A DNA stretch of 64,000 bases from Pseudomonas sp. LFM046 (GTDB lineage: Bacteria; Pseudomonadota; Gammaproteobacteria; Pseudomonadales; Pseudomonadaceae). Positions 4,748 to 19,994 of this stretch are shown piece after piece. How positions within the stretch are numbered: the stretch's first letter is position 1; the number at the start of each line of letters is the position of its first letter. The position numbers and the translations under genes are program-made. The notes beneath the pieces are model-generated. The model had not been told where the DNA came from. It ran no database searches and saw only the letters and a program-made list of their open reading frames with translations. The DNA is taken from assembly GCF_000949385.2 (NCBI RefSeq), contig NZ_JYKO02000001.1:1264620-1328619 (forward strand). Direction: 5' to 3'.

Positions 4748-5896
4748 TCAATGCGCCCCGGCGCCCTTGGCCAGGTCGCTTTCGTTCCACTCGGTGTAGA
4801 CGCAGGCATCCGCTGCGGCCCAGCGCACCAGGACTTGCGCACCCGGTTGCAGGGGCGCGGTGGCGCCGGAGAGTTCCTTCAGGGTCAGGCTGGTGCCGCC
4901 CGCAGTGGTCACGCTGCAGGTCAGGCTTTCGCCGAGGAACACGGTTTCCGTCACCTTGGCCTGGATCTGGTTCCAGCCGGCGGCCAGGGGCTGCGCGGCG
5001 GCCTGTTCCGGGGTCAGTACCTGGGCCTTTTCCGGGCGCACCATCAGCACCAGTTCCTGATCGTTCTTCAGGCCAGCGGTGGGGCGGATGGCCAGCGGCT
5101 GGTTCTCGAAGCTGGCCACGGCATTGCCCTGGGCCTTCACCTTGAGGAAGTTGGAGTTGCCGAGGAAGGACGCCACGAAGGCATTCGGCGGGTCCTGGTA
5201 GAGGTCGTAGCCGCTGCCGAGGCCAACGATGCGGCCGTGGCTGAAGATGGCGATGCGCTGGGACAGGCGCATGGCTTCTTCCTGGTCGTGGGTCACGTAG
5301 ACGATGGTGATGCCGAGGCGGCGGTGCAGGTGGCGCAGTTCGTCCTGCAGGTCTTCGCGCAGCTTCTTGTCCAGGGCGCCCAGGGGTTCGTCCATCAGCA
5401 GGATGCGCGGTTCGTACACCAGCGCCCTGGCAATGGCCACGCGCTGTTGCTGGCCGCCGGAAAGCTGGGCCGGGCGACGCTGGGCGAACTTCTCCAGCTG
5501 CACCAGCTTGAGCATGGACTCGACGCGGCGCTCGCGTTCGCCCGCGGCCTGCTTGCGAATGTCCAGGGGGAAGCCGATGTTGTCGCGCACGTTGAGGTGC
5601 GGGAACAGCGAGTAGCGCTGGAACACCATGCCGATGTCGCGCTTGTGGGGCGGCACGTTCACCAGGGACTTGCCGTCCACCAGGATTTCGCCGGAGCTGG
5701 GCGTCTCGAAGCCGGCCAGCATGGATAGCGTGGTGCTCTTGCCGGAGCCGCTGGAGCCGAGGAAGGTGAGGAACTCGCCGTCCTGGATGTCCAGGTTGAT
5801 GTTGTCCACGGCGGTGAAGTCGCCGTAGTGCTTGTTCAGGTTGCGCAGGCTGACCAGGGTCTTGTTTACGCGGGTGTCTTGGATCACGGCACTCAT
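4748..5896 (-). CDS. ABC transporter ATPase, PotA-like
   Basis: A 382-residue ATP-binding subunit. Walker A GSSGSGKST is at 47-55, the Q-loop at Q93, signature LSGGQ at 145-149 and Walker B ILLMDEP at 165-171, followed by a C-terminal TOBE-like regulatory region. Family: polyamine/opine/phosphonate-type importers. It energises the two permeases encoded just upstream. The start at 5896 (MSAVIQD) was preferred because the longer frame runs into the permease gene. It is the last gene of a leftward operon whose promoter carries the TGGAATACC operator, so it is probably part of the GntR-controlled regulon. Confidence 0.9.
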   Translation of the reverse strand: MSAVIQDTRVNKTLVSLRNLNKHYGDFTAVDNINLDIQDGEFLTFLGSSGSGKSTTLSMLAGFETPSSGEILVDGKSLVNVPPHKRDIGMVFQRYSLFPHLNVRDNIGFPLDIRKQAAGERERRVESMLKLVQLEKFAQRRPAQLSGGQQQRVAIARALVYEPRILLMDEPLGALDKKLREDLQDELRHLHRRLGITIVYVTHDQEEAMRLSQRIAIFSHGRIVGLGSGYDLYQDPPNAFVASFLGNSNFLKVKAQGNAVASFENQPLAIRPTAGLKNDQELVLMVRPEKAQVLTPEQAAAQPLAAGWNQIQAKVTETVFLGESLTCSVTTAGGTSLTLKELSGATAPLQPGAQVLVRWAAADACVYTEWNESDLAKGAGAH

Positions 5897-5913
5897 TTTC
5901 GTTACCTCGGCGC

Positions 5914-6723
5914 TCAGGCGCTTGCAGGGTTGCGCCGGCGCAGCACGGCGGCGATCACCATGACCAGTACGGACAGACCGATCAGCAGCGTCGAGGCGAC
6001 GGCGATCACCGGGGTCAGGTCCTGGCGCAGGGTGGTCCACATTTTCACGGGCAGGGTCTGCAGGGTCGGGCTGGCCATCATCACGCTCAGCACCACTTCA
6101 TCCCAGGAGACCAGGAAGGCGAACAGGGCACCGGCCATCATGCCGGGGCGAATCCCCGGGAAGGTCACCTTGAATACCGCCTGCAGCCGCGAGGCACCGC
6201 AGATCACCGCGGCATCCTCGATGGACTGATCGAACAGCTTCAGCGAGTTGATGATCGAGATGATCGTGAACGGCAACGCGACGATCACGTGGCTGACCAC
6301 GAAGGAGAACAGCGTCCCGGTGTAGCCCAGCTTGAGGAAGAGGGCGTACACGGCCACGGCGATGATCACCAGCGGCACGATCATCGGCAGGGTGAACAGG
6401 CCGTAGAGAAACTCCCGGCCGGGGAACTTGCCGCGCACCAGGGCGAAGGCGGTGGGCAGACCCAGGGCCACGGAGCAGAAGGTGGTCAGCACGGCCACCT
6501 TGAGGCTGGCCAGGGCCGACTCCATCCACTCGGCGTTGGAGAAGAACTGGTCGTACCACTTCAGCGTCCAGCCCGGCGGCGGGAACACCAGCCACTGGGA
6601 GGAGCCGAAGGACAGCAGCACGATGAACAGGATCGGCAGCAGCAGGAAGGCTGCGATCGTCCCCGTCGTGAGGTAGAGGCCGATGCGCAGGCGCAGGCCC
6701 ATGGCATTGGGTGACAGCAGCAT
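5914..6723 (-). CDS. ABC transporter permease, PotC-like
   Basis: A 269-residue inner-membrane permease with about six hydrophobic segments and a BPD_transp_1 EAA-type loop (DAAVICGASRLQAVFKVTFPG). A GAGGTAAG ribosome site supports the start at 6723, only 3 bp after the stop of the other permease, so translation is probably coupled. It pairs with that permease to form the membrane channel for the binding protein at 7671-8696. Confidence 0.9.
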   Translation of the reverse strand: MLLSPNAMGLRLRIGLYLTTGTIAAFLLLPILFIVLLSFGSSQWLVFPPPGWTLKWYDQFFSNAEWMESALASLKVAVLTTFCSVALGLPTAFALVRGKFPGREFLYGLFTLPMIVPLVIIAVAVYALFLKLGYTGTLFSFVVSHVIVALPFTIISIINSLKLFDQSIEDAAVICGASRLQAVFKVTFPGIRPGMMAGALFAFLVSWDEVVLSVMMASPTLQTLPVKMWTTLRQDLTPVIAVASTLLIGLSVLVMVIAAVLRRRNPASA

Positions 6724-6726
6724 GGC

Positions 6727-18320: not shown

Positions 18321-18487
18321 TGAAGTGCAAGCAGTATTTTTCCACAGCTACGGTCGCCCGACGAACGACGCATGAGTCTCTGAAAGCCAGTAACCACGGG
18401 GCTTGAGCGGGATGAGGTTGAACGTTTCAGCTGATGGAAAGGGGGCTTTCAGTACAGATTGGCGTCTAAAAATGCCTTGTCTGAGTC

Positions 18488-18511
18488 TTGGAATACCATA
18501 ATATGGTGTCC
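18488..18511. promoter_or_regulatory. Operator site 6, upstream of the NCS1 permease
   Basis: TTGGAATACCATAATATGG, 89 bp before the permease start. It sits about 170 bp from site 5, so the divergent reductase and permease genes each have their own copy. Confidence 0.75.
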
Positions 18512-18599
18512 GCTTTCGGGTGTCTGCCGTTCTTGGGACGACGCCCGAAGTCGTGGGCCCGCGTGGCTTTTCTACAAAGACAATAAGCAAGGCAAGACG

Positions 18600-19994
18600 A
18601 TGTCCGAGAATTCCCAGCAGACGCTGATCGAGAACCATACCGTCGATTACGTGCCGCCCGCCGAACGCCACGGCAAGGCCCGCGACCTGTTCACGCTCTG
18701 GTTCAGCACCAATATCGCGCCGTTGCCTATCGTCACCGGGGCCATGGTGGTCCAGGTATTCCACCTCGACCTGCTCTGGGGCCTGTTGGCCATTGTGCTG
18801 GGGCACATGATCGGCGGCGTCTTCATCGCCCTGGCTTCGGCCCAGGGGCCGCAGATGGGCATTCCGCAGATGGTGCAGAGCCGGGGCCAGTTTGGCCGCT
18901 ATGGCGCGCTGCTGATCGTGCTGTTCGCCGCCGTCATCTACGTTGGCTTCTTCATCTCCAACATCGTGCTGGCGGGCGAGTCGATCCACGGCATCGCCCC
19001 CGCCGTGCCGCTGCCGGCGGCCATCATCATCGGCGCCATCAGTGCTACCGCCATCGGCGTGATCGGCTACCGCTTCATCCACACCCTCAACCGCATCGGA
19101 ACCTGGGTGATGGGCGGCGCGCTGCTGGCCGGTTTCATCGCCATTTTCTGCAGCGAACTGCCGGCGGACTTCTTCAGCCGTGGTGCCTTCAACCTGTCGG
19201 GCTTCCTGGCCACGATCTGCCTGGGGATCATCTGGCAGCTGAGCTTCTCGCCCTATGTGTCGGACTACTCGCGCTACCTGCCGGCCAGCATCGGCATCGC
19301 CAAGCCGTTCTGGGCCACCTATTTCGGCGCCTGCCTGGGCACCATCCTGTCCTTCAGCTTCGGTGCGGTGGCAGTCCTGGCGACCCCGGAAGGCACCGAG
19401 GCCATGGCGGCGGTCAAGCAGGCCACCGGTGTCCTCGGTCCGGTGCTGATGCTGCTGTTCCTGCTCAACATCATCAGCCACAACGCCCTCAATCTGTACG
19501 GCGCAGTGCTGTCCATCGTCACTTCCATCCAGACCTTCGCCGGTGGCTGGACGCCCAGCATCCCGGTGCGGGTTGTCTTGTCCGCCGTGGTTCTGGTGGG
19601 CAGTTGCCTGATGGCCCTGGGCGCCTCGGCCAACTTCATTTCCCACTTCATCGGCCTGATCCTGGCGCTGTTGCTGGTCCTGGTGCCCTGGGCGTCGATC
19701 AACCTGATCGACTTCTACCTGATCAAGCGCGGCCGCTACGACATCGCCTCGATCTTCAAGGCGGACGGCGGCATTTACGGGCGTTTCAATCCCCACGCGA
19801 TCACGGCCTATTTCCTCGGCATCCTGGTGCAGTTGCCATTCGCCAATACCGCGCTCTACGTCGGCCCCTGGGCCAATTACATCGAGGGCGTGGACCTGTC
19901 CTGGCTGGTGGGGCTGCTGGTGACCTGCCCGCTCTACTACTGCCTGGCCACCCGCAGCAAGGAAGCGGTGGGGGTGTTGCGCCTGGCCGACTGA
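18600..19994 (+). CDS. NCS1-family permease (purine/cytosine/allantoin-type)
   Basis: A 464-residue integral membrane protein with about twelve hydrophobic segments. An N-terminal LFTLWFSTNIAPLPIVTGA block and an internal NIISHNALNLYG segment are typical of nucleobase:cation symporter-1 proteins, which take up cytosine, uracil, allantoin, hydantoins, thiamine or pyridoxine-like rings. The start at 18600 (MSENSQQ) was chosen by domain; the ribosome site is weak. It diverges from flavin reductase 2, carries operator site 6 and ends at a strong terminator. It is the main clue that the pathway substrate is a nitrogen heterocycle or cyclic amide. Confidence 0.9.
   Translation: MSENSQQTLIENHTVDYVPPAERHGKARDLFTLWFSTNIAPLPIVTGAMVVQVFHLDLLWGLLAIVLGHMIGGVFIALASAQGPQMGIPQMVQSRGQFGRYGALLIVLFAAVIYVGFFISNIVLAGESIHGIAPAVPLPAAIIIGAISATAIGVIGYRFIHTLNRIGTWVMGGALLAGFIAIFCSELPADFFSRGAFNLSGFLATICLGIIWQLSFSPYVSDYSRYLPASIGIAKPFWATYFGACLGTILSFSFGAVAVLATPEGTEAMAAVKQATGVLGPVLMLLFLLNIISHNALNLYGAVLSIVTSIQTFAGGWTPSIPVRVVLSAVVLVGSCLMALGASANFISHFIGLILALLLVLVPWASINLIDFYLIKRGRYDIASIFKADGGIYGRFNPHAITAYFLGILVQLPFANTALYVGPWANYIEGVDLSWLVGLLVTCPLYYCLATRSKEAVGVLRLAD

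Follow-up and report, generated by a model that had tools for sequence, protein, structure and literature searches.

A candidate trigonelline regulon in Pseudomonas sp. LFM046, an enlarged relative of the Acinetobacter tgn cluster

Trigonelline (N-methylnicotinate) is a common plant betaine, and a trigonelline degradation (Tgn) pathway was reportedly described in Acinetobacter baylyi ADP1 by Perchat and colleagues in 2018. The gene letters TgnC and TgnD we take to denote an aldehyde dehydrogenase (ALDH) and an alpha/beta hydrolase, respectively. PMC8269262 has the trigonelline ring opened by TgnA and TgnB, and a paper on 7-hydroxycoumarin places the DUF1185-family protein TgnF in the trigonelline pathway of strain ADP1 (PMC7913881). 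TgnB of ADP1 is listed in PMC11354265 under UniProt Q6F9F6. Here we describe a gene cluster at positions 4748–19994 of a 64-kb stretch of DNA (the window) from Pseudomonas sp. LFM046, setting out its gene content, its homology to tgn-type clusters and the placement, conservation and co-occurrence of a short palindromic operator that it carries in six copies. This orphan-looking cluster is very probably concerned with trigonelline catabolism, and would constitute an enlarged version of the A. baylyi tgn cluster. The pathway is thus already known in kind; the apparent novelties are an enlarged regulon, the operator and a link between TgnA and Nudix proteins. Searches of open-licence literature turned up no title or abstract beginning that mentions the operator, a Pseudomonas trigonelline regulon or the TgnA–Nudix relation; some of these points may already have been published. 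Loci, genomes and taxa are cited below by our own handles (L, G, f and g numbers) where these are needed.

Gene content and a probable trigonelline assignment

Genes were assigned with Pfam (Table 1). At the centre of the cluster is a luciferase-like monooxygenase (LLM), 98% identical to proteins of P. resinovorans DSM 21078 and of a strain named P. taiwanensis xwS3. By this protein the strain stands near P. resinovorans. A protein search returned 3008 relatives; among the 120 listed, three (P0063, P0070 and P0089; 77–79% identical) bear the JGI name ‘flavin-dependent trigonelline monooxygenase, oxygenase component’, the others listed having general names or none. Compared by sequence with chains of known structure, the LLM protein matches general luciferase-family chains only (best 106 bits), the DUF1185 protein matches 2qtp and 3byq, and the NCS1 permease has no match at E 0.001.

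A search of 348 genomes of family f35 at E <= 1e-60 found the LLM in 40, in genera g117 and g60, at 48–52% identity to the window protein; we infer that f35 is Moraxellaceae, g117 Acinetobacter and g60 Psychrobacter. Four g117 clusters (L140–L143) comprise a GntR gene and, alongside it, genes for a DUF1185 protein, a hydrolase, a reductase, an LLM protein, an ALDH, an NCS1 permease, a protein of 388–430 amino acids, an ALDH resembling succinate-semialdehyde dehydrogenase (SSADH) and a CMD protein. The window proteins find their counterparts here: CMD (77–78% identical), NCS1 permease (54–59%), DUF1185 protein (55–58%, corresponding to TgnF), ALDH (53–56%, TgnC), LLM (50–52% over its full length, TgnB-type, the partner being the g117 protein rather than that of ADP1 itself), GntR (37–38%) and alpha/beta hydrolase (32–34%, TgnD). 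Flavin reductase 2 (FRed2) is 36–38% identical to the reductase domain only of the g117 TgnA-type protein, and the window has two Flavin_Reduct proteins in its place. The initial annotation had described the gene set as unassigned and matching no pathway; it is in fact matched throughout in the g117 tgn-type clusters, DUF1185/TgnF, CMD and NCS1 included, and these share the same operator. What had been proposed for the chemistry, an FMNH2-dependent ring opening that gives a semialdehyde-amide to be oxidised and hydrolysed, fared better, and agrees with the chemistry of trigonelline degradation.

The same annotation had called the pathway Rut-like, and for the general reaction type this is fair. 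Both plans share an FMNH2-dependent LLM oxygenase, a RutF-like reductase and a RutD-like alpha/beta hydrolase, and the cluster adds an NCS1 permease of nucleobase type, all of which might favour a pyrimidine or other nucleobase as substrate. Membership of the Rut families was nevertheless rejected: the two reductases score 56.9 and 63.5 bits against a RutF cut-off of 254.75, the hydrolase scores 88.9 bits against a RutD cut-off of 238.5, and no RutA model appears for the LLM among the 25 of 30 families shown. RutB, RutC and RutE are absent from the genes assigned in the cluster. The regulator is of another kind and so is the permease family, RutG not being known as an NCS1 permease. With the gene set matching tgn-type clusters instead, we regard a Rut-like pathway as extremely improbable.

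Read as a trigonelline pathway, the cluster would operate as follows. The betaine would be taken up by the ABC importer and the NCS1 permease, and FMNH2 would be made by the two flavin reductases, FMN supply perhaps being raised by RibBX and the Nudix hydrolase. The LLM enzyme, as the TgnB counterpart, would open the N-methylpyridinium ring. The resulting semialdehyde/hydroxylactone would be oxidised by the ALDH (TgnC), and the alpha/beta hydrolase (TgnD) would release formate and methylamine. An SSADH, its gene lying at another site in the genome, would oxidise the succinate semialdehyde left over. The FCD-GntR protein would act as a repressor at the six palindromes that head the transcription units, trigonelline or an intermediate releasing it.

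The operator and its probable regulator

The pattern TGGWATACCRTAATA has six exact matches in the window, against a mean of 0.00 in 100 dinucleotide shuffles. The six copies noted in the initial annotation are therefore real; their positions were right to within 3 bases and are here shifted by 1–3 bases (Table 1). At up to three mismatches the window yields 11 rows, namely the six sites, four opposite-strand readings and one stray 3-mismatch match at 23727. The whole genome (5,972,904 bases in 4 contigs) was scanned with TGGNATACCRTAATA at up to two mismatches, giving 15 rows: the six exact window sites, which are the sole matches at 0–1 mismatch (there being no 1-mismatch match anywhere in the 4 contigs), two rows that read these palindromes from the other strand, and seven scattered 2-mismatch matches. 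The reversed control pattern has 0 matches in this genome. Because only the six sites match at 0–1 mismatch and the scattered ones all carry two, the motif is not a genome-wide one; the scan proposed earlier as a check thus showed no random spread, and the motif is confined at 0–1 mismatch to 8.8–18.6 kb of the window.

The core of the operator, TGGTATACCA, is a perfect palindrome and fits the pattern TNGTNNACNA, which we take to be that of FCD-GntR operators. The cluster encodes a regulator with GntR and FCD domains, and palindromes of the TNGTNNACNA type lie 5' of the candidate targets. Distances from site to start codon are 28 bp for the DUF1185 gene, 29 for DUF1330, 36 for RibBX, 54 for FRed2, 90 for NCS1, 101 for LLM and 108 for the solute-binding protein (SBP), so that the earlier range of 28–145 bp becomes 28–108 bp with the start codons used here.

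Whether these sites are placed consistently can be seen in 80 loci, scored for the palindromic core at up to one mismatch within 250 bp upstream; the counts exclude genes that are less than 65% identical, have no clear start or are truncated at the end of a contig. The core is present upstream of SBP in 26/26 loci, RibBX in 29/29, DUF1330 in 29/29 (the same site as for RibBX), DUF1185 in 5/5, NCS1 in 39/41, FRed2 in 58/63 and LLM in 54/80. Before the operon-internal genes of these loci it is absent, both in the ABC unit (permeases 0/30 and 0/32, ATPase 0/32) and among the catabolic genes (Nudix 0/24, GntR 0/21, flavin reductase 1 0/13, ALDH 0/6 and alpha/beta hydrolase 0/5). A near-core site precedes CMD in 4/15, and locus L151 is exceptional in having a 1-mismatch site before its Nudix gene.

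The 26 LLM genes that lack a site are instructive. All but two begin 33–164 bp after FRed2 and can for that reason be read from the FRed2 operator; no FRed2 was seen near the other two. LLM genes with a site either lie at least 105 bp after FRed2 or are away from it, the two ranges overlapping at 105–164 bp. In the window FRed2 is followed directly by a terminator-like stem-loop (17743–17726) and LLM has its own operator, although such stem-loops are not above chance there (three in 15990–18620 against 2.2 expected, together with one weak promoter-like match against 0.5 expected). Across 53 loci the LLM site holds 1.95 bits per base in the core, compared with 0.29 and 0.23 in the flanks. The operators, then, mark the heads of transcription units, and the initial view of the cluster as one regulon with an operator of FCD-GntR type is supported. 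From the site that they share, the RibBX and DUF1330 genes are predicted to be part of the regulon. A DUF1330 gene adjoins a GntR gene also in the tgn-type clusters of Gemmobacter and Burkholderia, and the SBP has counterparts 62–64% identical in those of Mesorhizobium and Gemmobacter.

The operator is found well beyond Pseudomonas. Clusters were scanned with the 15-mer at 0–2 mismatches, mono-nucleotide shuffles giving 0–0.6 matches per locus. It is present in 13 of the 15 clusters of a first set (two of the 13, L150 and L151, being Pseudomonadaceae); in L148, which is cut by a contig end, it was not found. Two g117 clusters have it exact and on both strands, the g60 cluster has an exact copy, and the Mesorhizobium and Gemmobacter clusters have it at one mismatch; sites at one to two mismatches occur in all four of the Paraburkholderia, Burkholderia, Caballeronia and Sinorhizobium meliloti pSymA clusters. 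A 4-kb piece, L152, has no site; a longer piece of the same genome, L179, has the motif at 1–2 mismatches.

Presence of the operator also coincides with that of the LLM gene. Among 298 Pseudomonadaceae genomes, 82 have the LLM, 82 an exact operator and 81 both (Fisher p = 2.5e-71, uncorrected for shared ancestry). The discordant genomes are G722, with an LLM only, of the Moraxellaceae type, and G797, with a single operator site only. For a second family of 144 genomes, an exact site is found in ten of 11 LLM-positive genomes (all but G478), in each case about 2–3 kb from the LLM gene, and in seven of 133 LLM-negative ones (p = 2.7e-10). Since the reversed control pattern matches 6/144 of these genomes, the seven single sites are at chance level. 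The 15-bp operator could serve to mark the pathway in genomes of several proteobacterial groups.

Which protein binds it is a question separate from that of the substrate. The FCD-GntR protein is the probable repressor at all six operators, its binding, the sign of its action and its inducer being predictions. The palindrome might instead belong to another regulator, with the GntR gene merely nearby: the operator is nearly unchanged while the GntR proteins are only 37–38% identical, and in L145, L147, L165 and L167 the site precedes DUF1185 with no GntR gene directly adjoining. Against this, the core fits the pattern assumed for FCD-GntR operators, ten of the 17 clusters with a site (L140–L144, L149, L090, L091, L164 and L166) have it in the gap separating GntR from DUF1185, and 17 of 19 clusters show a GntR gene within the stretch analysed. 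The remaining clusters with a site are L146, where it precedes LLM, and L150 and L151, which have Pseudomonas-type layouts. Another binder seems to us improbable, and we retain GntR as the likely regulator.

Possible flavin supply in the regulon

The regulon would extend beyond catabolism to the supply of flavin. The gene initially called ribB we have renamed RibBX because the GTP-cyclohydrolase-II-like C-terminal domain of its product has no cysteine. GTP cyclohydrolase II requires a zinc-binding set of cysteines; those of RibBX are found only at positions 40, 57, 65 and 148 of 369, leaving the RibA-like half without any. The genome has three ribB matches, this one included.

The Nudix protein provides a link to TgnA. 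Four of the five reductases that were scanned with Pfam (L141, L144, L090 and L091) have some 150 C-terminal residues without a Pfam name, the fifth (Arthrobacter) having an N-terminal SnoaL domain instead. A profile of this C-terminal domain, built from ten clusters (L140–L144, L149, L090, L091, L165 and L167), matches the window-type Nudix family in hhalign with a probability of 99.5 (E 1.3e-22), compared with 0.1 for the reductase domain as a control. Judged by this profile match, the window Nudix protein and the C-terminal domain of TgnA-type reductases are homologous, and what is a single protein elsewhere is therefore split here into a reductase and a Nudix hydrolase. The Nudix box is intact in the window protein, while none is visible by eye in the fused domains. 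We suggest tentatively, at slightly less than even confidence, that the regulon provides FMN when triggered by the substrate, the regulator switching on RibBX as an extra DHBP synthase and, by way of the DUF1185 operon, the Nudix enzyme, which could convert FAD to FMN, so that the oxygenase would receive its cofactor only when substrate is present, and that the degenerate C-terminal domain of TgnA is a Nudix descendant kept for flavin handling or docking.

Flavin-supply genes are again found beside the oxygenase on the mobilizable plasmid pDCT5 of Arthrobacter dokdonellae (L089:5342-16068), which encodes an LLM (76% identical), two DUF1185 proteins, a riboflavin kinase, a Nudix protein, a SnoaL–reductase fusion and a tautomerase, yet has no operator.

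Table 1. Operators and genes of the cluster, with positions in the 64-kb window
Feature	Position	Strand	Basis or remark
Operator 1, 5' of SBP gene	8838..8852	-	exact match; exact in 26/26 scorable loci
Operator 2, between divergent RibBX and DUF1330 genes	10297..10311	+	exact match; palindromic core in 29/29 scorable loci, 23 exact
Operator 3, 5' of DUF1185 operon	16055..16069	+	exact match; exact before DUF1185 in 5/5 scorable loci
Operator 4, 5' of LLM gene	17535..17549	+	exact match
Operator 5, 5' of FRed2	18304..18318	+	exact match
Operator 6, 5' of NCS1 permease	18489..18503	+	exact match
ABC importer ATPase (PotA-like)	4748..5926	-	Pfam ABC_tran and TOBE_2
ABC importer permease 1	5914..6723	-	Pfam BPD_transp_1
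ABC importer permease 2	6727..7584	-	Pfam BPD_transp_1
SBP, first gene of ABC unit	7671..8729	-	Pfam SBP_bac_8
RibBX (3,4-DHBP synthase with cysteine-free GTP-cyclohydrolase-II-like domain; putative extra flavin supply)	9151..10260	-	Pfam
DUF1330 protein	10341..10634	+	Pfam PF07045
Zn-ribbon Nudix hydrolase, Nudix box intact	10681..11244	-	Pfam
FCD-type GntR regulator (TgnR counterpart)	11249..12001	-	Pfam GntR and FCD
CMD (PcaC-like) protein	12083..12478	-	Pfam
Flavin reductase 1 (TgnA reductase-domain counterpart)	12585..13070	-	Pfam Flavin_Reduct
ALDH (TgnC counterpart)	13083..14564	-	identity to g117 cluster ALDH
alpha/beta hydrolase (TgnD counterpart)	14561..15394	-	identity to g117 cluster hydrolase
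DUF1185 protein (TgnF counterpart), first gene of catabolic operon	15421..16026	-	Pfam AA_synth, PF06684, 238.8 bits
LLM (TgnB counterpart), putative ring-opening oxygenase	16390..17433	-	Pfam Bac_luciferase
FRed2	17764..18249	-	Pfam Flavin_Reduct
NCS1-type permease	18594..19994	+	Pfam Transp_cyt_pur

Weighing the substrate, and comparison with tgn-type clusters

Growth on trigonelline has been recorded in groups of bacteria where relatives of the window LLM occur. Two surveys report its use by 53/53 kiwifruit strains of P. syringae (PMC10890144) and by 97.9% of 48 P. viridiflava isolates (PMC9412563), and in PMC6283537 the test is negative for P. coronafaciens but positive for the P. syringae pathovars in all eight columns. 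LLM relatives include P0046 from P. viridiflava (87% identical, among the relatives listed) and those of P. syringae, P. avellanae and P. cerasi genomes (88–90%). The cluster may supply the genes behind trigonelline utilisation, which serves as a test in P. syringae taxonomy. For S. meliloti, PMC4207669 has the wild type growing on trigonelline and a strain without pSymA failing to do so. The pSymA of S. meliloti RMO17 carries a tgn-type cluster with 2-mismatch operator sites, and a paper of 1991 is said to have placed trigonelline genes on pSym.

A number of observations weigh against the trigonelline assignment or the regulon built on it. The strains tested for growth and those sequenced differ; pSymA of S. 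meliloti presumably also has the older trc genes. PMC10890144 itself notes that its pv. actinidiae trigonelline result differs from that of other authors. The clusters used for comparison are only inferred to be from Acinetobacter and other Moraxellaceae, and the proteins compared are those of g117 rather than ADP1's own. The g60 cluster L144 fits less well, with no NCS1 gene seen in 20 kb and a CMD protein only 49% identical. TgnE, the SSADH, is not encoded in the window cluster; it is the sole enzyme of the g117 clusters without a counterpart there. Four SSADH homologues (56–64% identity) are encoded elsewhere in the genome, and an ALDH of about 40% identity lies beside the CMD gene in 7/80 loci (L020, L023, L026, L030, L037, L038 and L061). 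The Arthrobacter cluster L089 has no operator in the 15-mer scan at up to two mismatches despite its 76% identical LLM, and a hexamer scan for sigma-70-like promoters near the operators, at the seven operator–gene pairs, did no better than shuffles. Finally, identity of the LLM to the g117 type is no more than about 51%, and in a tree of 51 rows, in which the Pseudomonas and Moraxellaceae rows are samples, the window clade and the Moraxellaceae type stand on either side of a long internal branch (0.87); on these grounds a shifted substrate is possible.

That long branch speaks for a paralogous pathway, in which the Pseudomonas/actinobacterial LLM clade would use the same chemistry and regulator family on another (N-methyl)pyridine, such as homarine or a nicotinamide derivative. 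There are indeed two more distant clusters, neither of which has the operator: L176 in G729, with an LLM of 44% identity, and another in the LFM046 genome itself, whose LLM is 27% identical to that of L141. According to PMC8269262, TgnA/TgnB are unlikely to act on homarine, so that other betaines need other enzymes. On the other hand, the permease (54–59%) and CMD protein (77–78%) are common to window and g117 clusters and the operator is conserved. Matching genomes have one LLM copy at E <= 1e-60 in 11/11, 40/40, 81/82 and 9/9 cases (a few genomes being common to the sets of 82 and 11), and members of the P. syringae complex, where relatives of the LLM gene occur, are reported to grow on trigonelline. 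We consider a paralogous pathway unlikely, and keep trigonelline as the probable substrate.

Of the distant clusters, that of LFM046 (G000:C1:2748154-2756255; L178:8155-16256) encodes the second LLM, a TgnA-like fused reductase (33%), an alpha/beta hydrolase, ABC ATPases and an ALDH and appears to be a paralogous heterocycle pathway; a second DUF1185 gene (39% to that of the window) lies about 25 kb away (G000:C1:2723227-2723754; L177:8228-8755). L176 (G729:C1:725200-745000) is of a third type, with a TgnA-like reductase, DUF1185 (55%), CMD (57%) and SSADH-like ALDH (49%) genes, in a genome that also carries a window-type cluster.

Variation is seen too among the relatives of the window cluster. 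Extra NCS1 permeases (about 38% and 62% identity) are encoded near the LLM gene in other Pseudomonas, between LLM and DUF1185 in L010, L011, L016 and L017 and downstream of LLM in L036, L046, L072, L074 and L081. On Mesorhizobium pMESCI01 the alpha/beta hydrolase and flavin reductase are fused in one protein of 599 amino acids (L090:13205-15004).

How, then, does the window cluster compare with those already described? Tgn-type clusters on plasmids of Burkholderia, Caballeronia, Paraburkholderia, Mesorhizobium and Gemmobacter and on S. meliloti pSymA share with it the DUF1185, hydrolase, flavin reductase, LLM, ALDH and GntR genes, a nearby ABC importer and the operator, at 1–2 mismatches, but their LLM proteins are 52–55% identical and, where tested (L090, L091, L165 and L167), their reductase is fused to the Nudix-like domain. 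With the A. baylyi Tgn system, as represented by the g117 clusters, it has in common the LLM with its flavin reductase, the ALDH, the alpha/beta hydrolase, DUF1185, CMD, the NCS1 permease, the FCD-GntR regulator and the operator. It differs in having two single-domain flavin reductases and a separate Nudix protein rather than one fused TgnA, lacks an in-cluster SSADH, adds the ABC importer, RibBX and DUF1330, and carries six operators where the g117 clusters L141 and L142 have two.

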